From Loxodes magnus (taxonomy: Eukaryota > Ciliophora > Karyorelictea > Loxodida > Loxodidae): a DNA stretch of 64,000 nt. Position numbers and translations under genes: made by a program. The DNA lies in contig CAMPDV010001717.1 in the NCBI GenBank assembly GCA_946699065.1, positions 1-64,000 of the forward strand, given 5' to 3'. The notes under the pieces were generated by a model, which saw only the letters and a list, made by a program, of their open reading frames with translations, had not been told where the DNA came from and made no database searches. This document shows positions 4,420-59,104 of the stretch, in pieces (positions within the stretch are counted from its first letter, which is position 1; each line of letters starts with the position of its first letter).

Positions 4420-5370
4420 ATGGATCAAGAGATATCAAAATCCAGTAAATAACTATATTTAGTTAGGATTATTTTTCTTAGGAAAATATTAAGAGAAAAT
4501 TATAAAAATTGAAATTATAGCTTCTAAAAGTTAGGCTTAGGAAACGTAAAGTATGAAATTTGTCCAAATTTCGCTTATGATTATATCAGATAATATAAGA
4601 CTTTCCTTCATGATTCATATATCTTATATAGTTATGACTTAAAGTAAAGAATAGTAGATTAAATGGAAAAAAATATAGAAGCTCTTAGTTCAAATTTTAC
4701 AAGAGTATCACAAGTAAATGAAAACATCTTTGCTCTTTCTGGTGGAGTATCATTAAAAAGACTAACCTTTTACAATTTAGATGAATGTGAAGAAAGTTAA
4801 ATGTAATTTGAAAGGGGAATGCATGGAGTTGCTTTTAACCAAAAATAAATGTTTTTTCTTAGTGGATTTATTACAAATTCATGTGAAATGCTTAATCTAA
4901 AATAAAGATTAAATACAATCTAAATTCACGATATGCTAAAAGAAAATGAAAGTGTATGAGGATTTGGAGCTAATATAAAATTACCTTATGTTTATGTTTT
5001 TGGAGGAAATCATTCGAAAGATTTGTAAATTGATAAAATAAGAAGATTTCAAATGTAAAACAATCACTGAGAAGAGACGAACGAATGTTTACCTGCAAAA
5101 GCTACTACTATGTCTTCTGATTTATAAAATAAACAATCTATTCTAGTTTATAGCAACTGGGATTAATTTTTGGAAACTTAAATATTTGATTTAGTAAAAG
5201 AAAAATGCTATTAACATGGTAATATTTTTGAAGGAAATGATTGCTGCTTAGTAGCAAATCCTCTATATCAACAAAATATTGTATATCAGTTTAATCACAT
5301 TTGTAATCTTTTTATTTACGAAGTTAAAAAAGGAGAATGGTCTAAAGCATTTATTTCAAAAGGAAGATGA
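4420..5370 (+). CDS. Kelch-like protein, family A copy A2 (intact, 316 aa)
   Basis: An uninterrupted 317-codon frame when TAA/TAG are Gln and TGA is Trp. Residues 1-50 are a conserved N-terminal block (LVRIIFLRKILRENYKNW, then GLGNVKYEICPNF). From about residue 95 the sequence has Kelch-type blades: repeated Gly-Gly or Ser-Gly followed by a hydrophobic strand and a Trp or Tyr (LSGG, FLSG, WGFGANIK, YVYVFGG). A beta-propeller binding scaffold is inferred; no catalytic motif is visible. In-frame TGA codons at 4510, 4957 and 5068 (codons 31, 180, 217) sit at positions where Kelch repeats want Trp. The TGA at 5368-5370 falls where most copies end and is taken as the stop. ATG 4420 was chosen because MDQE is conserved in all copies. 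The gene stands alone. Confidence 0.85.
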
Positions 5371-9318: not shown

Positions 9319-10269
9319 TCAAGTCTCATTTGAAGAAAATGCTTTAATCCACAATCCCTTTTTTATCTCATAAATAAAAAGATCGCAAATGGATTTAAAC
9401 TGATATACAAAGCTTGATTTATAAAGAGGATTTGATATCAAACAATAATTATCTCCTTCAAAAGCATTTCCGTGCTTATAGCATTTTTCTTTTACTATAT
9501 CAAATATTTAAGTCTCCAAAAAATGTCTCCAGTTGTTATAAACTAAAATAGATTGTTAACTTGGCAAATCAGATGACATAGTAGTAACATTTGCAGGTAA
9601 ATTTTCGCTTATTTCTTCTCATTGGTTGTCTTTTATTTGAAATCTTCTTATTTTATTAAGATATCCATGCTAAGTATGAAGTCCTCCAAAAACATAGACG
9701 TAAGGCATTTTTATATTTGCTCCAAATCCTCATACACTTTAATCATTTTGGAACATATCTTAAATTTATATTGTATTTTATCATTATTTTAGGTTAAGCA
9801 TTTCACACTTATTTGTATTAACTCCACTAAGAAAAAACATTTATACTTTGTTAAAAGCAACTCCATGCATTCCTCTTTAAAGCTTCATTTAACTTTCTTC
9901 ACATCTTTATATCTTGTAAAAGGTCAGTCTATTTGATTACATTCCTCCAGAAATTATTAAATTATTTTCATTTATTTATGAAACTCGTGTATGATTTGAA
10001 CTAAGAGGTACTAATTGTTTTTCACTTTTATATACTCCTTATTGTTTTATGTCATATTCATATAAGACACAAGAATTATAAAAGAACGCTTTATAAACTT
10101 TGATATTATTGTAAACGAAATTTGGACAGATTTCGTACTTTATATTTCCTAATCCTATTTTTTAGAAGCTATAATTTCAAATTTTATAGTTCTATCTAAG
10201 AATTTTCCTCATAAAAATGATCTTTACTACATTTAGCTGTTTATTGAATTTTAAAACCTCTTAATCCAT
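9319..10269 (-). CDS. Kelch-like protein, family A copy A3 (intact, 316 aa)
   Basis: An uninterrupted 951-nt frame, the same length as A2. It opens with MDQEVLKFNKQLNVVKIIF and has the conserved block GLGNIKYEICPNF. Propeller-like strands follow: ISGG, FFLSG, VWGFGANIKMPYVYVFGG. The tract MSSDLPSQQSILVYNNW has Trp as TGG, while at least four other Trp positions use TGA (in YKI-W-NYSF, LKQ-W-QN, SV-W-GFG and DNQ-W-EEI). The frame ends KAFSSNET-TGA at 9319-9321, the family's usual stop. It is presumably a Kelch beta-propeller scaffold; the partner is unknown. It is transcribed towards the S1 SINE. Intact in spite of surrounding mobile DNA, it is among the best candidates for a working member. 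Confidence 0.85.
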
Positions 10270-11955: not shown

Positions 11956-12204
11956 TTTTCAATAAAATAATAATTTTAATTTTAAATTTTAATCTTTAAA
12001 TTAAATGTTAATTTTTTGAATCAAGTCTTTATATAAGAAAATATTTTGGACCATACTATTTTTTTGATCTAATAACTAAACAGATTACAACTGTGATTAA
12101 ATTGATAAGCAAAACCTTAGTAACAAAGAAGATTTGCTAATAAACAACAGTCATTCCCTTCAAAAGCATTTCCATGCTGATAGCATTTTTCTTTTACTAT
12201 ATCA

Positions 12205-12221
12205 AATATTTAAGTTTCTAA
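12205..12221. repeat. Target-site duplication, copy 1 (17 bp)
   Basis: AATATTTAAGTTTCTAA, repeated exactly at 12526-12542 on the other side of the SINE. It is part of the Kelch-like A4 gene. Confidence 0.85.
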
Positions 12222-12525
12222 TAATTAAAAAGATGGTGGGAGCTGAGATTGACCTTCTGAATCATACTTTCTGGTTTTATGGCTAGGAACAAGTTCCTTT
12301 CCTGTCGTTGAGAAAGTCCCTGGTCAAAGTCAACCTTTGCAAGGGAACGCCTTCCTCTTGATTATCCACTCCTGGTAGGGGCTTGAAGCCTGGCTGCCCA
12401 TAGCGATGGAGCTCCCTGGCAGCTGCTTTTCGAAAGCAACAGGATATCCCCGTTATCCCATGAAGGGAATGTTGGGGTCGTTAAACTGGAAGAAGTTGCA
12501 GTCCAAAATTCTTTAAGTTGAAATT
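12222..12525 (-). mobile_element. SINE-like element S3, copy 1 (about 304 bp, GC-rich)
   Basis: About 50% G+C against roughly 20% around it. Orientation is set by alignment to 25658-25963 (+). On the minus strand it starts with AATTTCAACTTAAAGAATTT and ends CCATCTTTTTAATTAT next to the duplication. It contains a hairpin GGATA-ACGGGGA-TATCC. No protein reading is conserved between the two copies in a way that suggests coding. The exact 17-bp duplication shows target-primed insertion with little subsequent decay. Confidence 0.8.
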
Positions 12526-12542
12526 AATATTTAAGTTTCTAA
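12526..12542. repeat. Target-site duplication, copy 2 (17 bp)
   Basis: Exact second copy of AATATTTAAGTTTCTAA. See 12205-12221. Confidence 0.85.
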
Positions 12543-13461
12543 AAATTTATTCCAGTTATTATAAACTAGTATAGATTGCTTACTTGGTAAATCAGAAGTC
12601 ATAGTAGTAGATTTAGCAGGTAAATATGCATTTATTTCTTCTCATTGGTTGTCTTTTATTTGAAATCTTCTTATTATATTAAGATATTTTTGCTAAGAGT
12701 GATTTCCTCCAAAAACGAACACATAAGGTAGATTTATATTTACTCCAAAACCTCATAACTTTTGTTCATTTAGAAACATATCTTAAATTTAAATAGACTT
12801 TTATATTTGATTAAAATTAAGCATTTCACATGAATTTGAAAATAATCCACTAAGAAAAAATATTTATTCTTAGTTAAAAGCAACTCCATGCTATCCCCTT
12901 TCAAATTACATTTAACTTTCTTCACATTTCTCTAAATTATAAAAGGTCAGTCTCTTCGATTAATCTCCACCAGAAATTATCAAATTGTTTTCATTTACCT
13001 GTAATACTCGTGTATAATTTGAACTAAGAGCCTCTATTTGCTTTGGGGATTGTTTTACTCTTTATTACTTTATATCATACTCATATAAGCAACTGGATGA
13101 GCAGAGAAAAGTCTTATAAACTTTGATATAATCATAAGTTAAATTTGGACAGACTTCATATTTAACATTTCTTAATCCTATCTTTTAGAAATTATAATTT
13201 CAGTTTTTATAGTTTTAACTAAGAGTTTTCCTAAGAAAAATGATTTTAACTACATTTAACTATTTACTGGATTTGAAAAGCTCTTGATCCATTTTTATAA
13301 ATAATTATAAATATTAAGCAAACTAATGAAATATATTATTTTAATACTTCACTATTTATTTTATTTTTTACTAGCTTCTAATTTAAATACTTAGTTTATA
13401 ATATATTAATAGTTTAATTACTTTATCTTTATCAATCTCTTTTTAATGGTAACTTTTATGA

Positions 13462-17255: not shown

Positions 17256-18386
17256 ATGGATCAAGAGGTTTTCAAATCCAGTAAATAACTAAATGTAGTT
17301 AGGATCGTTTTTCTTAGAAAAATTCTTAGATAAAACTAAAAAAATTGAAATTATAGTTTCTAAAAAATAGGATTAGGAAACATAAAATACGAAATCTGTC
17401 CAAACTTTGCCTACGATCATATCAAGGTTTATAAAACTTTCCTTTATAATTCCTGTATCTTATATGAGTATGATATAAAGCAAAAATTAATAGATAAATC
17501 CTCAAAAGAAATATAATCTCTTAGTTATAATTTTACACGAGTATCACAATTAAATGAAAATAACTTGATAATTTCTGGTGGAGAGTAATCATAAAGGCTG
17601 ACCTTTTATAACTTATAGAATTGTGAAGAAAGTTAAATGAAATTTGAAAGGGGACTACATGGAGTTGCTTTTGACTAAAATTAAATGTTTTTCCTTAGTG
17701 GGTTAAGGACAAATTCTTGTGAAGTTCTTAATCTTAAATAACGATAAAGTGTAACTTAAATTCAAGATATGTTCCAGTGTGATAATTATTTATGAGGATT
17801 TGGAGCTAATATAAAACCGCCTTATGTCTATGTTTTTGGAGGAGTTAATTCTTAAGAAAAATATCAAAATAAAATAAGAAAATTACAAGTAAAAAACAAT
17901 AAATGAGAAAAGGTGAGGGAATTTTTGCCTGCAAATACTACTACTATGACTTCTGATTTACCAAATAAGCAATCTATTTTAGTTTATAATAACTGGAATA
18001 AATTTTTAGAAACTTAAATTTTTGATATAGTAAAAGAAAAATGCTATAAGCATGGAAACATTTTTGAAGGAAATGATTATTGCTTAGTAGCAAATCCTTA
18101 TTAGTAATAAAGTTTCGTATATCAGTTTAATCATATTTGTAATCTTTTTATTTACGAAATAAAAAAAGGAGTGTGGTTCAAACATTCACCTTAAATGGGG
18201 AATAAAAAATTAATTTAATTTAAATTAAATTTAAAATTCTTACTATTAAATATTTATTTCAGCTTAAATTTTACCTTTAATTAAGAATTAATTTTTCTTA
18301 TTATAATTGAACTAAATTTAAACACTCTTTAGATTCAAAATTTTTACGTCAGAAGAAATTTGATTAAAAAATTTATAATAAATTGA
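17256..18386 (+). CDS. Kelch-like protein, family A copy A6 (open, usual stop lost)
   Basis: The family frame is intact from MDQEVFKSSKQLNVVRIVF through GLGNIKYEICPNF, VWGF-like and YVYVFGG blades, YNNWNKFLETQIFDIVKEKC and YQFNHICNLFIYEIKKGVWF. TGA stands for Trp in codon 31 and in two blades. The usual terminal TGA, expected at 18204-18206, is AAA here. The next in-frame TGA is 18384-18386, adding about 60 residues of A/T-driven sequence. Either the protein has a useless tail, or termination occurs at one of the TAA codons just after 18209, which would favour a table-28-like code. Fold and role as for A2. Confidence 0.75.
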
Positions 18387-29798: not shown

Positions 29799-30737
29799 AT
29801 GTCTCAGTAAGAAAACTAACTTATTAAGATTTTATTCCTAAGAAAACTTTTAAGAAAATCTCAAAAATAAGATGGAATCCATATATTCAGCAAATTTGGA
29901 ATAGGAGTGACTAAGTATGAACTCTGTTCTAATCTTAAAAATTCTAGAAGTTTCTCACTTATCTCTACTTTAAATTAAGCCCCAAGAAAATTTACTTATT
30001 AAGTTCATAAAAATAAATTTATAAGTGAATATACAAATATTATTATTGATAAGCTGAACTCATGTGTCGAATAAATTTACAATGAAACTCTGCTTATTTC
30101 AGGTGGTAATAAAAAAGATGAAAGAAAATTTATGATTCATAATTTAAATAATAAAACTCTTAAATTTAAAATGCACGAAGGCAGGAGATATCATAGAACG
30201 AATTTTGATAAAAAAAGCTTAATTTTTATAATTTCAGGATAAAAAGATAAAAACGATCGGTAAATAAATTTTTCTGGATGTGAAATTTTCGATTTGAGAA
30301 CTAATAACTTTAAGTAAATAAATTCTATAGAAATACATGTTTTCTGATTTGGATGTGATTAAACTGCTTCTTAGCTTCATGTGTTTGGAGGTTTTTAACT
30401 TGATCCCTCTTAAGCATTTAATACAATTTAGATATATGATGAAACTTTGAATATATGATAAAAAAGCGAAGTTTAATTGGATAAGATAGCCACTACTTCA
30501 GCTATATATATATCAAAAATGAAATCATTTCTTATCTATAATAATGGATATTACAATCTTGATACCCAATTATTTGATTTTAAAAAGATCGTTAAATAAA
30601 ATGAAAAATTTGAAGTGGATAACATTAATTCTAATCAGCCAGTTTTAAGTAGAAATATTATCTTTCAATTTGATAGGGATAGTGATTTATTTAGTTATGA
30701 TTTGAACAAAAAAGGATGGAGAAAAGTTGAAGCTTGA
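29799..30737 (+). CDS. Kelch-like protein, family B copy B3 (intact, 312 aa)
   Basis: 313 codons without a frameshift. The N-terminal block is MSQQENQLIKILFLRKLLRK, then FGIGVTKYELCSNL, the counterpart of the family A block. Kelch-like blades follow: LLISGGNKKDERKF, IIFIISGQ, LHVFGGFQ, and near the end LFSYDLNKKGWRKVEA. TGA is Trp in HVF-W-FGCD and at codon 220 (30456-30458) in LNI-W-QKSE, where paralogue B5 has TGG. The stop is TGA 30735-30737, followed at once by a second TGA, as also in B4. A beta-propeller scaffold of unknown partner. It lies in the left arm of the large inverted repeat. Confidence 0.85.
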
Positions 30738-30740
30738 TGA

Positions 30741-36525: not shown

Positions 36526-38394
36526 ATGAAATCAAATAATTAATTAGTCTAATGAGAACTTATTTACTTAGAAATAAAAGAACTTAAACATAATATATAA
36601 AGACTTATAGATAAGAACCAATAATTAAATGAAATGCTAATTAATATAAAAGCAAAATATGAACGAGATATTGAAACATTAATAAGTAACTAAGAAATAT
36701 CCAAAATATATTATAAAACTTATATAAATAAAATTTATTAGAAATATAAACAATTATAGAGCAATTTTTAGTCAATCAAATCTGATATATAACAATATCA
36801 CAAAAAAATGCTATCAAAATAACTAGTTCATAAATTTACTTAAACAAACTTCTCCACTTATTACAGTAACTAAATAGTTTAAACAGATGAAATAATTAAT
36901 ATAGTTCAAGAAATTTAGATATAATAGAAAAACTATGAGAATTAAGTCAATTCAAAAGATTAAATATAATCTAATTAAGAGATTCAAATTGAAGCCAATG
37001 CTAATTAAAGCTTTACTTAAGCTTAAATGATAGGAGCAAATAATTCACTATGCCAAAACTTTAATAAAATTAGAAATTTTACTTAGATTGAAATAGATAA
37101 CTTTCTAAATAAAATTTAGCTAGGATATCAATAGACTATATTAGAATAGAACTAATATTTACTTCAACAAATTACCTAATAAAAAATAATAACCGAAATT
37201 TAACTCCAAGAGTTATATTTTTAATATTAAAAATTATAAAACTAAAATAAGTAATTTATAGATTAAGAATAGAAAGCTTAAATGGAAATTTTAACTTTTA
37301 AAATCGAATTAGATAAGTAAAGATAATAAAACTATGAAATAAATATAGCTTTTCAAAGTTAAATTCTATTAAAAAATAAGGAAATTCAAATGTATAAAGA
37401 ATTATTTTAGAAGAAGTAATTTGTAAATGCATAAACTTAGACATTATATGGAAATATTTAAACAAAGGATAGTATTATCTAAACAGATAATATAAATAAA
37501 TAATAAACAGCTTTTTTGTGTCAAAAATTTACTCAAACAAATATAATCAAGCAAGACAAGTTAATGTAAACTTAAAATAATTAATAGGAAGCATAAACTA
37601 ATACTATTATAACATAACATAATAACTAATACTGTCAAATAAAATTGCCAGATGAAGATTTTGTTTTACTATAGCATTAATATCACTAACTCAACTTAAA
37701 ATTCATTTAAAGTACCCAAAATATGTAGACACTTGAGATAAAAATAGAAGAGTTTTAAAAACTTAATTAAAATTTGAAAACAGATATATTTAATTATTCT
37801 ACTAAAAGATTAAAAAAAGATTAATAAAACTAAACAGATTCGATCGATGCTATTTATCAGAATTAAACCTTATCTTCCAATATTAATCTTAATATTCTTA
37901 AAAGGAAACATGAAGAAGAAGATAAAACAATTCCGCCAGCAAAACGTATGAGTAAACATAATAATAAAAAAGAGTGTGATTAAATAATATGTTATTTCAA
38001 TCTGACTAGTCTATAACTTTAAAAGTTTATTAAATCCGAAACTTGAAGACGTCCATAGCACGAAATGTAAAATATATAAGAAAGATATGTCACAGTTACT
38101 TAAGATTTAGAATAAGGTACATGTGATAGTGTGAAAAGTAAAATTGACATAGATAGAAAGCTACTTAAAAAATATACGACGTAAGTAATATATATTTTGA
38201 TACAATATTTTCATTAACATCCTGAGTATGGAAAAAGATTAGTACATATTTAGATTAACCAATAAGGATAGAAAAGCATTTGCATTTACGAAAGTGGTCT
38301 ACCTGCAGGTTCGGAAAAAATTAGAAAGGACTAATAAATTTAAAAATAAAGATGGGACATATAAATATTAATGGAATAGCGAGCAAGTGCTTGA
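36526..38394 (+). CDS. LINE ORF1: Gln/Asn-rich coiled-coil protein with basic segment
   Basis: An open frame of 622 codons, TGA being read as Trp at 36553 and near 38047. Gln and Asn are extremely frequent because TAA/TAG are Gln. Long heptad-like runs (IKELKHNIQRLIDKNQQLNE; LQELYFQYQKLQNQNKQFID) predict coiled coils. Around residue 460 is LKRKHEEEDKTIPPAKRMSK, a bipartite nuclear-localisation-like signal, followed by a globular stretch. No zinc knuckle is visible, unlike the other ORF1 proteins here. It ends at TGA 38392-38394, overlapping ORF2 by 43 nt in another frame. Presumed RNA-binding ribonucleoprotein component. The start ATG is a choice; upstream sequence has several TGA codons. Confidence 0.65.
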
Positions 38395-41300
38395 ATATTG
38401 AAGAATTTATCAGAGATAACAGTATAGATATTTTATCAATAAACGAAACCTGATAAAAAGATGACTTTCCTCCAATATTGATAAATGGATTTAAAACATA
38501 TTTTAAGAACTCAGGAAAAGGAGGAGGTGTATGCTTAATTGTAGGAGAAGAATTTAATAGTACAGAAATACATATATAAGTTGAAAAAGAAATAAATAGA
38601 TTCATAACAATTAAACTGGATAATATTTTAATCACGTCTTGTTACATGCCTGATAGTGGAAAAAGTTAAGATGTTAAAGATTTAGCTTATGAACAACTAA
38701 ATACATTGCTGAATTTATATAATGATAATCCACATATACTAATGGGAGATTTCAATGCTCTTTTATAAGATTTCGGTGATAATCCTGAAAATGCTTATGA
38801 TAATAACATTAGACTATAAGAATTCTTACTATAAAACGATCTTGAGATAGTGAATGATAGCAACATTAATACATGTATTCACAAAGGAACAGGAAAAACG
38901 TATTGTAATGATTATATCATTATAAACAACCATTTGAACGTTAATTAGTTTGCAAATTTCACTGCTCATAATAATAGTTTATTTTCTGATCATATTCCAA
39001 TCACTGTCGACTTTATCAATAATTCTATAGTATATTGGGAAAAGATAACTCATAAAATAAATAGATTATAAGATGCAATAGATAGGCAAAAATATTAAGA
39101 ATCTTTCCTACAAACTTATCTAGAATTCTTTTAAATAGATTAAGATAATCTTGAAGATTAATATGAATGCATCAAAAGTAATATTTAAGACAATGCTGAT
39201 CAAACATTAGGCTCGTTTATTCCAGACTCAAATTATAACAAACTTCCTCGAGCTCTCACAAAGAAATATATAGAGGCAAAAAGAGCTAACTCAGAATATA
39301 AGGAAGCTCACGTAAAATTTGGAAGAATAAACTAGTAAGTAACTAATCTTCATGAGGAAGCAAAACGACTTTGGAAAGACTTCAAGCATAATCTATGAAA
39401 ATTTAAAAAGAACAAAGCAAAAAAGAAATTTCTACTTCTTAATGGAAATTCTAAGGAAATTTTTTCACAAGCTAAGAAAATTCTAAATCCTTTGAAGAGA
39501 AATACTATGAACTTTAATTAAGAAATCAAAAATAAATTCGTTGAATCATGGGAAAATTGTGTTTTTAACAAGCATTCTAATCTAACTCAAGAATAGATAA
39601 ATCTTAGTAATTAAAAAATAGATAAAATATACGATAATATTTAAGAAATTAAAGATTATCCACTTATTTGTAAGGATTTGATCTTTTTACCATAAAAGAA
39701 ATATAAGAAATTATAAAAGAAAATCCGAATGGAAAAGCAGCTGGTCCAGATGGAATAAAAGGCGAACTTCTGAAATATGGTGGATAATATTTATTAATAA
39801 TTCTTCATTCTTTTCTGAATAATATGCTAAGACTTGGAAGAATCCCTTAGGAATTAAATATATCGGTGATAATTCCAATATTTAAAAAAGGAAATAAAGA
39901 TGATTGGAAAAACTGACTACCTATTTCTCTTATTAATACTATTCTAAAACTATATGATAAAGCTTTAACAAAAAGAATATACAATCTGATTTATTAGAGA
40001 AATTTGATTCATCCTTCATAAATGGGATTTATGAAAAACAGATAAACAACTTAATAAATTTGAATAATATAACAAATAATTGATAACTATCGGAAATGTG
40101 CTAAAGGTAAGACTAAATTGATAGCAACACTGATAGACGTTGAAAAAATGTTGACTCAATAGAAAGAAGACTCTTGTTTGATTAACTTAAGAGAGTTAAA
40201 CTACCACTTGGAATAATAATAGCATTAGAATCGTTTTATAAAAACCTAAATTCTTCATTTATCATGATGGTAAGAACACCAGAACTTTATAATTCAACAA
40301 TGGAGTTATGTAAGGAAGTTCTCATGGACCAGTTTTAGCATTATTGTATTATGACATAGTAATTAGATATCTGGAAAGTAAAAGTAACTAATTGGGATTT
40401 AAATGCCAGGATTCAAGTATTAGCTTCGCTTGTAGAGGATGGGTAGATGATCTTATTCTTCTTTCCAAATCTGCAAAGTAGATGTAGAATTTAATAAATG
40501 AATCAAATAAAGTTTTTGCATGAACACATTTAAAGATTAATGTTACCAAATCCGAATGCATCTAATTTCTAAAGAAGAATCAGAAATAATAAATTTTAAA
40601 TTTATAATTAGGAAATTAACCAATTACTTAAAAAGAACAAGTAACATATTTAGGAATTATTCTACATTAGAAGAAGAACTTAAATCCCCATTGCAAAGAA
40701 GTTGCATTTAAATATATAGCTGCAGTGAAGAAAGCTGTTTTTTAACTGATGAGATATAAGAATGTAACTCCTTGACATTTTAAAGCTTTATGTAGACTTT
40801 TTACATTACCTAAAGCAGAATATGGAGGAGACTTAGTACCATGAAGTATTCAAAAAGGAGTAACTGGAGTTCTGAACAGAATAGAATCAAGCATGAGATT
40901 AATTTCAAGAAAAGCTTTTTAAGTAGCAACTTCAACATTTAATGAATCATGTTATATAGACCTGAATTGATTACCCTTTAAGCACATTATGGCTATAAAA
41001 TTCTTCAGATTCTACCATAAAATTAAATAAGAAAGTACTGATTTTCCAAGATCAACAATAGGCTCTCTTTTCATTAATATATGGAAAAAAGGATTTCAAT
41101 ACTACGATTAAGTGTAGCAATTATCAGACCTTTATAATATCGATCTGCAGAATTAATAGAATAATACCAATCTTAAAATTTTTACTAAACATGTAAGAGA
41201 AAAAATACAACAATATTTCTACAAAGTAGCTACTAAAAAATTTATGAGGATGAAAACAGCTAAAGTATATACTGAATAATTTGGTAATCTTTAACAATTT

Positions 41301-41729
41301 CCACAAATTACTTATACTAAATTAAACAAATAGTACAGACGAGAAATTATCAGTATATATAAACTTAGAACCTAAACTTATAATTTCCGTAAGGATCTTT
41401 AAGATCGTCATTACCCCATTGATAATCCCTTTTGTATGTGTGGAGAGTATGAAACTTTCGAGCATATCTTTAAATGTGTGTACTATTCTAATATAATGAA
41501 TTGATTATCGGAAAAAATCGGAAATTATGACTTAAGGCGCCTTATACTATACGATCAAGAATATCTAAACTCATTTTCAAGGTCTAAATTGGAGTATTTA
41601 GACTTATAGATCAAAATATTTCATAAGAAGCTAATGACAAGGAGACTTGAGATTCTAGAAATGGAGAAAGTAAAAAAAGAAGAAGCTAAAGATGAATAGA
41701 AAGAAGAACTAATTGAAGAAAAATAATGA
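38352..41729 (+). pseudogene. LINE ORF2: APE endonuclease + reverse transcriptase, three frameshifts
   Basis: Residues 1-230 are an APE-type endonuclease: INING, INETW (Trp as TGA 38451-38453), GKGGG, LMGDFNAL, CNDYIII and FSDHIPI. The reverse transcriptase follows: NPNGKAAGPDGI, ISVIIPIFKKG, NW-LPISLINT (Trp TGA), HPSQMGF, NGVMQGSSHGPVLALLYYD, and the active-site strand FACRGWVDDLILL. VDD stands where YADD/FADD is usual. The C-terminus has C-M-C-GEYETFE-H-IFK-C, the CCHC motif of many LINEs. Frameshifts lie near 39680 (T run), 40150 and 40310. It cuts target DNA and copies element RNA in the family; this copy is inactive unless the shifts are errors. Stop TGA 41727-41729. Confidence 0.85.
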
Positions 41730-44628: not shown

Positions 44629-44952
44629 TAATTTAATGATAATTTTTGCCTACATTTGTTTAAAAATTTAATGCTTTAAGTTTTAAATAGTTTAAAAATA
44701 ATTTAATTAATTTTTATAGACTTAATTATGTTAATCACTAAATTTGATAGTTTATTTTTGGTAATTAAACATTTTAATATTCCTTAATAATTTAAATACA
44801 AATGTGCTTGGATTAATTTAACCTAAATAGTAATATTTTATTATGCTTTAAATATTAATTTTTATTATTAATTAATTAATTTTATTATTTAAAATATTAT
44901 TTTATAACTAACATAATTTTTAAGTTTAAATATTAATATAAGTTTTACTTCA

Positions 44953-51465: not shown

Positions 51466-51502
51466 TAAATACTTAAAATTTTTAATTACTTTATAAAAAT
51501 AA

Positions 51503-52447
51503 ATGTATTAGTAAGAAAACTAAATTATTAAGATTTTATTCCTAAGAAAACTTTTAAGAAAAGCTCAAAAATATAATGGAATCTTTATATTCAGCAAATT
51601 CGGAATAGGAGTTACTAAATATGAACTCTGTTCTAATCTTAAAGAATCTAGAAACTTCTAATTTATTTCTACCATAAAAATGAATTCAAACAATAAATTT
51701 ACTTACTAAATTCGTAATAATAAAGTCTAAAATGAAACTATAAATGCTTTTACTGATGGCCTGACTTAATGTGTAGAGCAAATTTATAATGATACTCTGC
51801 TAGTTTCAGGTGGTTTTAAAGAAGAAGAAAGAAGATTTATAATTAATAATTTAAATAATAAAAATTTAGAATTTTAAATGTAAGTAGGAAGAAGATTTCA
51901 TAGAACTAATTTTGATAAATCAAGCTTAATTTACATAATTTCAGGACAAAAGTTTTAAAACAACTAGTGAATAAATTTGTCAGAATGTGAAGTTTTTAAT
52001 TTGCGAAATAATAATTTCAAGAAAATAAATTCTATAGAAATACCTATATGCTACTTTGGATGTGATTAAACTGCTTCTTAAATTTGTGTGTTTGGTGGGT
52101 TTTAAAATTCTTAAGCGCTTAATACAATTTAGATTTATAACAAAACTTAAAATACATGGAAAAAAAGTGAAACTTAGTTATATTAGAATGGTACGACTTC
52201 AGCCATTTATATACCTTATAAAGGAGTATTTTTTATATTTAGTAATGGATACTATAATCTTGACTCATTATTTTTTGATTTCCAAAAAATTGTACATTTA
52301 AATGAATAATTTCCAGCATAAGACCTTAATTCTTATTAGCCAGTTTTAAGTAGAAGCACTGTCTTTCAATTTGATAGAAATATTAATTTATTTAGCTATG
52401 ATTTAAGTGGCAAAGGGTGGAAGCAAATTGGAATTTAATAAAGTTGA
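51503..52447 (+). CDS. Kelch-like protein, family B copy B5 (intact, 314 aa)
   Basis: 315 codons without a shift. MYQQENQIIKILFLRKLLRK, FGIGVTKYELCSNLKESRN, LLVSGGFKEEERRF, ICVFGGFQNS and LFSYDLSGKGWKQIGI are all conserved. At codon 219 (52157-52159) this copy has TGG where B3 has TGA, direct evidence that TGA means Trp in the family. A further TGA stands in the QNNQ-W-INLS tract. The stop TGA is at 52445-52447, three codons later than in B3 because the usual TGA is TAA here; the extra Gln-Gln-Ser follows. Beta-propeller scaffold inferred. Confidence 0.85.
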
Positions 52448-58125: not shown

Positions 58126-59104
58126 ATGGATAAAGAGGTTTTAAAATCCAGTAAATAGCTTAATATAGTTAAGATCATTTCTCTAAGGAAAATTCTTAGA
58201 GAGAACTATAAAGATTGAATTTATAGCTTCTAAAAAATAGGATTAGGAAATATAAAATACGAAATCTGTCCAAATTTCGTTTATGATAATATCTAAGTTT
58301 GTAAGACTTTTCTTTAAAATTCTAGTATCTTTTTTGAATATGACATAAAGCAATAAAGAGTAGATAAAAGTGAAAAACAATTAAGACCTCTTAGCTTAAA
58401 TCATACACGAATTTCATAGATAAATGAAAACGAAATAATAATTTCTGGTGGAATGTAGTAAAATAGACTGACCTTTTACAAGATATAAAAATGTGAAGAA
58501 AGTTAAATGAAGTTTTAAAGAGAATACATGGAGTTGCTTTCAATTAAGTATAAATGTTTTTTCTTGGTGGATATAATACAAATTCATGTGAAATGCCTAA
58601 CCTAAAGAAAAGATAAAATAAAATTTAAATTTAAGATATGTTCCAAAATGATCAAAGTGTATGAGGATTTGGAGCAAATGTTAAAAAATCATGTGTTTAT
58701 GCTTTTGGAGGATTTCATAATTAGCAAAAATATCTAAATAAAATAAGAAAATTTCAAATAAAAAGCAATAAATGAGAAGAAATAAATGAAACTTTACAAG
58801 TCAAAGCTACTACTATGTCTTCTGATGTGCCAAATTAATAATCTATATTAATTTATAACAACTGAAATCGAAATTTATAAACTTAAATATTTGATATAGT
58901 AAAAGAAAAGTGTTTTTAGCATGGAAATCAATTTGAAGGAAATAATAGTTGCTTAATAGTGAATCCTCTTTGTTACTAAGGTTTTGTTTATCAGTTTAAT
59001 CATACTTGCAATCTTTTTATTTATGAGATAATAAAGGGAATGTGGACTAAATCCTTTTCTTCAGATGGGAATGGACAAAAATTTTATTTAAATTAAAAAT
59101 TTTT
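58126..59104 (+). pseudogene. Kelch-like family A copy A11, one frameshift
   Basis: MDKEVLKSSKQLNIVKIISL and GLGNIKYEICPNFVYDN open the frame. One base is missing near 58520 (AAAGAGAATAC where others have AAAGGGGAATGC), after which the rest reads cleanly in the shifted frame. At 58863-58865 the family's YNN-Trp is TGA; A2, A3, A4 and A6 have TGG there, so this is direct proof of Trp coding. The terminal TGA is not kept; the sequence continues SSDGNGQKFYLN then TAA near 59095. Apart from one base this copy is complete. Confidence 0.8.

Follow-up and report, generated by a model that had tools for sequence, protein, structure and literature searches.

Kelch-like genes and a LINE-type element in the window

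The window analyzed here is positions 1 to 64,000 of contig C1717 in the Loxodes magnus assembly (705,730,643 bases in 7,843 contigs). The published macronuclear assembly of this species is described as 706 Mbp long with about 2,700 RVT_1 copies (PMC11441545); our RVT_1 search of the assembly gave 3,403 candidates, 150 of which were scored. The window is rich in repeats, among them the copies of a kelch-like gene family (family A), related kelch-like copies (family B), and a LINE-type element. The features considered are given below, with columns numbered as in the codon alignment of 23 family A copies.

4420..5370, plus strand: A2, a kelch-like family A copy, ATG to TGA (kelch Pfam model on family members)
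4510..4512, plus strand: in-frame TGA of A2, column 31, mixed and no clear Trp position (11 of the 23 copies have TGA)
4957..4959, plus strand: in-frame TGA of A2, column 180 (TGA in 15 of 23 copies, AGA in 4)
5068..5070, plus strand: in-frame TGA of A2 at a kelch-type Trp, column 217 (TGA 21, TGG 2)
5158..5160, plus strand: TGG of A2, column 247, TGA in other copies (TGA 9, TGG 13, TGT 1)
5338..5340, plus strand: TGG of A2, column 307, 10 codons 5' of the stop (TGG in 22 of the 22 aligned copies with data)
5368..5370, plus strand: terminal TGA (stop) of A2, column 317
9319..10269, minus strand: family A copy, TGA end
12477..13292, minus strand: family A piece, columns 1-274
12021-12227, beside the minus-strand piece at 12477..13292: family A piece, columns 249-317, TGA end
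17256..18182, plus strand: family A copy without terminal TGA
29820..30728, plus strand: B3, a related kelch-like copy, TGA at 30456 (column 217), TGA TGA three codons past the aligned end
38379..41498, plus strand: LINE-type element with endonuclease and reverse transcriptase (PF14529, E 4.6e-11; PF00078, E 4.7e-10; PF03372, E 1.4e-8)
51497..52444, plus strand: B5, a related kelch-like copy, TGG at 52157 (column 217), TGA immediately past the aligned end
58126..59069, plus strand: A11, a family A copy (two BLAST pieces), TGA at 58863, terminal TGA absent from the family position

The assignment to kelch proteins comes from the family: A2 matched kelch models only below the curated cut-offs, and one kelch Pfam model matched all 20 aligned family A members tested with it at E-values up to 0.01 (best 2.9e-9). 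The search of the genome for family A produced 1,936 candidates and 125 scored matches. A single-sequence fold of A2 was of no use (mean pLDDT 33.7).

Read with TGA as Trp, A2 is open from its ATG to its end, and with table 6 it is broken at three internal positions. It contains 16 in-frame TAA codons, no TAG, and three internal TGA codons (4510, 4957, and 5068) besides the terminal TGA at 5368. Shuffled sequences hold 17.6 TAA, 6.6 TAG, and 6.7 TGA, against 16, 0, and 3 observed, and the six reading frames of the window include 62 TGA-free runs of at least 250 codons; since the stop counts are near random and long TGA-free runs are many, A2 alone is uninformative and was rejected as evidence for the code by itself. 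Frame 1 of the A2 DNA contains no TGA whatever.

The first-pass annotation had also pointed to TGA in an endonuclease ETW motif and at the Trp of zinc knuckles. The former was located within the LINE-type element, where ETW occupies 38445-38453 and its Trp is encoded by TGA (38451-38453); the reverse transcriptase match of this element, in the same frame, is limited to positions 106-205 of the 205-position profile. Nine other ETW strings occur in the window, four of them at or beside the 3' ends of kelch-family members. As for the zinc knuckles, knuckle-like TGAs do exist (from 13807 and from 60130), but the motif is not defined by a Trp, and they are thus weak evidence for Trp.

Exchange of TGA with TGG in the kelch-like family

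The codon alignment includes 4 family A copies from the window and 19 fetched from elsewhere in the genome. The pairs of codons cited in the first-pass annotation as interchanging proved to be correctly placed: TGA at 58863 of A11 and TGG at 5158 of A2 share column 247, and TGA at 30456 of B3 and TGG at 52157 of B5 share column 217, the place of Trp in the kelch repeat motif. The proposal that TGA occupies Trp positions many times per gene turned out to be overstated. Clean Trp columns are limited to 217 and 247, whereas column 31, with eight other codons among the copies lacking TGA, and column 180 are mixed and support Trp poorly; A2 has no more than three internal TGAs.

Among one-step codon differences that involve TGA, 41% lead to TGG in frame 0, as compared with 10 and 6% in the two shifted frames, and among those involving TGG, 93% lead to TGA in frame 0 vs. 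25 and 16% in the shifted frames, although the pairs compared are not independent, since the family copies are related. The exchange of TGA with TGG in Trp columns is thereby confirmed to exceed chance. For TAA and TAG the family is less telling. In the pooled family A copies, TAG differs to TAA or CAG in 71% of cases in frame vs. 28 and 46% in the shifted frames, and TAA to CAA in 25% in frame vs. 8 and 25% shifted; being equally high in shifted frame 2, the TAA-CAA exchange does not discriminate Gln in family A. The Gln reading of TAA and TAG rests on the tubulins, not on the kelch family.

Internal stops in multicopy genes might simply reflect decay, i.e., dead repeat copies whose stops are read as sense only through alignment. 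The repeat-rich window, the plainly degenerate family member at 744-1691, the near-random stop counts of A2, and the dN/dS of 0.72 for one close pair of copies (L081/L087, outside the dS filter) would all be expected from such decay. Yet TGA at conserved Trp positions exchanges specifically with TGG, this exchange is lower out of frame than in frame, and the median dN/dS of family A is 0.29 (range 0.17 to 0.53; computed from the 214 pairs, out of 253, whose dS lay within 0.2 to 1.5). The genes described in the next section, which carry TAA and TAG as well (eRF1, actin, tubulin, and four of the nine histone H4 genes) and among which beta-tubulins with dN/dS far below 1 show the same TGA-TGG exchange, make decay a highly improbable account of the internal stops.

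Codon meanings in conserved genes

In two beta-tubulins (L091 and L092), Trp 101, 344, and 397 are all encoded by TGA and the terminal codon is also TGA, so that one codon stands both for Trp and for stop within one gene. Two further beta-tubulins (L090 and L093) have TGG at the same three positions and TGA as the terminal codon. The dN/dS between L090 and L091 is approximately 0.015, with dS saturated. Together with kelch columns 217 and 247 in the 23 copies, these positions bear out the assignment of TGA to Trp, and internal TGA at the Trp positions of conserved genes is at variance with table 6, where TGA is a stop only.

TAA and TAG (TAR) columns in the tubulins agree with Gln. Nineteen of the 20 TAR columns in the four beta-tubulins are Gln throughout, 16 of them with exchange between TAR and CAR, and all four TAR columns in two alpha-tubulins are Gln. 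A tRNA gene with the UUA anticodon, described below, agrees with the same assignment. Against Gln, the eRF1 alignment has, within its first 104 residues, four TAR codons that stand opposite human K, S, K, and K.

The first match to the eRF1_1 domain (contig C2, L009/L065) was rejected as eRF1; judged by eye, it reads like Pelota. The eRF1 genes proper lie on contig C196.

Use of TGA differs between the members of two conserved families. In the tubulins, with 150 scored matches from 258 candidates and TGA counted within the PF00091 domain, the 30 best-scoring matches have no TGA and 116 of the 120 others have at least one. In the actin family, the 44 best of 96 matches lack TGA and 25 of the remaining 52 contain it. 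Many copies in both families are near-identical, and these counts are therefore not independent.

Termination at TGA and the ends of genes

All nine histone H4 matches found end in GFGG-TGA, in both eRF1 genes TGA is terminal and absent from the interior, and six of the eight fetched tubulins have TGA after the acidic tail; TGA is thus the only stop seen in this sample of conserved genes, which is a sample rather than a genome-wide survey. For the two other tubulins (L094 and L095), TGA was not found near the expected end, and TAA follows the tail of L095.

In family A, most copies were said in the first-pass annotation to end at the same TGA. Of the window pieces that reach column 309 or beyond, five of eight have TGA at column 317, and the pieces at 17256, 35559, and 58518 (A11) lack a terminal TGA in the 20 codons onward. 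In the 23-copy set, TGA lies exactly at column 317 in 11 copies and within two codons of it in 3 more, the remaining 9 having no TGA within two codons or ending short of the column. Among the related B pieces, the four checked have TGA 1 to 3 codons past the aligned end.

Several ends deviate in other ways. Two B-family pieces end in TGA TGA (window 30735-30740 and near 44950). Similarly, both eRF1 copies on C196 (L010 and L011) have a second in-frame TGA three codons after the stop TGA, and L010 has a third two codons later. These additional in-frame TGAs are possibly back-up stops. Two family A copies (L079 on C77 and L080 on C3328) have TAG where other copies show the terminal TGA; pseudogenes, extended proteins, and a rare UAG stop are all possible explanations.

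The TAG ends of L079 and L080, as well as L095 with TAA after its tail and no nearby TGA, are what a Condylostoma-type code (table 28) would produce, since UAA and UAG would then also be stops near gene ends. TAA or TAG serves as the stop in none of the nine H4 genes, none of the six tubulins with a clear end, and neither eRF1 gene, all of which end in TGA, and UGA is described as the sole stop in the Loxodes paper (PMC11441545). We accordingly consider it very unlikely that table 28 applies.

In the 11 copies with the terminal TGA, which belong to a single family of related copies, the closest in-frame TGA lies at least 70 columns upstream. The Trp at column 307 is TGG in seven of the eight family A pieces of the window, the other having TAG (36144), and in four of four B pieces. 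Mapped on the tree, changes number 0 at column 307, 4 at column 247, and 1 at column 217, and four conserved Lys/Glu columns show 1, 6, 1, and 2; with as few as one change in such columns, the invariance of column 307 alone is a weak indication. The TGG at this column and the distance of the last in-frame TGA from the stop fit, within this weak tree test, the depletion of coding UGA shortly 5' of the stop that has been published for Loxodes (PMC11441545).

tRNA genes and the release factor eRF1

A pattern search for tRNA-Trp gave 171 matches, and the 100 listed all have the CCA anticodon (48 on C67, 50 on C148, and 2 on C110). In the genes fetched in full from the two arrays, 26 on C67 and 21 on C148, positions 27 and 43 are mismatched, leaving an anticodon stem of 4 pairs. 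The two genes on C110 have 27:43 paired and a 5-bp stem. The matches listed on C67 and C148 form tandem arrays (C67:482301-491340 and C148:155442 onward) that repeat roughly every 187 and 241 bases. At another locus (L042), a 5-bp-stem tRNA-Trp(CCA) gene (1493-1565) and, some 775 bases away, a tRNA-Met(CAU) gene (718-790) have nearly identical bodies, and from the sequences the pair looks as if an anticodon arm had been swapped.

The UCA-anticodon tRNA-Trp anticipated by the first-pass annotation was not found with the patterns searched. UCA versions of all four tRNA-Trp forms identified here had no match to the pattern used for them. A looser pattern of UCA anticodon plus T-arm had 177 matches vs. 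233 for the reversed control, and none of nine of these 177 places, picked by eye, was folded as a tRNA by ARAGORN. This negative result does not refute the code, because decoding of UGA by tRNA-Trp(CCA) with a 4-bp stem has been published for Blastocrithidia and Condylostoma, and this tRNA is cited as present in Loxodes (PMC13092985, PMC12005148). The presumed mechanism should shift from a UCA tRNA to the short-stem CCA tRNA.

A tRNA gene with the UUA anticodon was found and folds as a tRNA; it recurs through its match list (C214:232599-237571). A search for a CUA-anticodon tRNA, limited to the D-arm of the UUA tRNA, gave no exact match. The general Rfam tRNA search scored 63 of 42,786 candidates and is hence no full survey of the tRNA set. 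Some tRNA genes recur in many copies, often in tandem (C103, C78, and C158), and the 30 fetched of the 63 scored are tRNA-Lys(UUU), several of them beside tRNA-Ala.

In eRF1, Ala67 aligns to human Ser70, a position occupied by Gly in Blastocrithidia (PMC12153298). The protein also differs from the human one at Glu55, Thr58, and Ser60, so no single change can be held responsible.

These elements can be combined into a scheme modeled on published work on other species, in particular on the model in which UGA is sense by default and a stop at the 3' end (PMC4967479). UAA and UAG would be read as Gln by the UUA-anticodon tRNA, whose charging with Gln we infer. UGA inside genes would be Trp by default, most likely read as a near-cognate codon by the abundant tRNA-Trp(CCA) with an anticodon stem of only 4 pairs, and the eRF1 change at the human Ser70 position may aid this reading. 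Near the mRNA 3' end, eRF1 would win the competition and UGA would terminate translation. RNA editing of UGA (e.g., A-to-I conversion into a UGG-like codon), with UGA itself never decoded, would result in Trp as well, but the coding UGAs tallied in the Loxodes paper come from assembled transcripts (PMC11441545), and we regard editing as the least probable of the readings considered.

Comparison with known codes

The code table supported by the conserved genes tested here is table 27 (UAA and UAG as Gln, UGA as Trp and sole stop), as the first-pass annotation had proposed in naming the karyorelict code with context-dependent UGA. It is almost certain, in our estimate, that Loxodes magnus nuclear DNA follows this table, most likely with the UUA-anticodon tRNA, the 4-pair tRNA-Trp(CCA), the eRF1 change, and the 3'-end override acting jointly. 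The codon meanings and UGA ends in conserved genes, as well as the tRNA and eRF1 sequences, are established by the present analysis.

The same meanings have been reported for the karyorelicts Parduczia sp. and Loxodes (PMC4967479, PMC11441545), and the published Loxodes data record the depletion of coding UGA 5' of the stop (PMC11441545); we found no differences from table 27. For Loxodes magnus itself, the Loxodes paper gives this table, with UGA as the sole stop that is nevertheless Trp where it is far enough from the poly-A tail (PMC11441545). In Condylostoma magnum (table 28), all three stop codons are also sense, and a CCA tRNA-Trp is described, the UCA gene being undetected there (PMC4967479). 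In contrast to the conserved gene ends analyzed here, where only UGA was seen, all three codons terminate in that species. Blastocrithidia shares UGA as Trp, the 4-bp-stem tRNA-Trp(CCA), and an eRF1 change at the human Ser70 position (PMC12153298, PMC13092985). It is reported to differ in that UAR encodes Glu, UAA is also a stop, and the eRF1 residue is Gly rather than the Ala of the present protein.

Implications for Loxodes

It is a true biological oddity for one codon to carry two meanings, but a karyorelict example was reported in 2016, and the code of Loxodes magnus itself has been described in these terms. The dual-meaning UGA code of Loxodes having already been published, the window is a clear yet ordinary example of it. 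For gene finding the consequence is practical: if TGA were taken solely as a stop in this window, A2 and genes like it would be broken.

The split in UGA usage between genes raises the possibility, which we put forward tentatively and hold to be somewhat less probable than its opposite, that UGA is a second-class codon for Trp. The best-conserved and presumably highly expressed genes would use UGG only, whereas diverged paralogues, multicopy families, and LINEs would use UGA freely. If so, there would be a selection gradient arising from competition between eRF1, with Ala at the human Ser70 position, and the 4-bp-stem tRNA-Trp encoded in large tandem arrays. The pattern of genes that avoid UGA as Trp could itself yield a cheap test of what the ambiguity costs.
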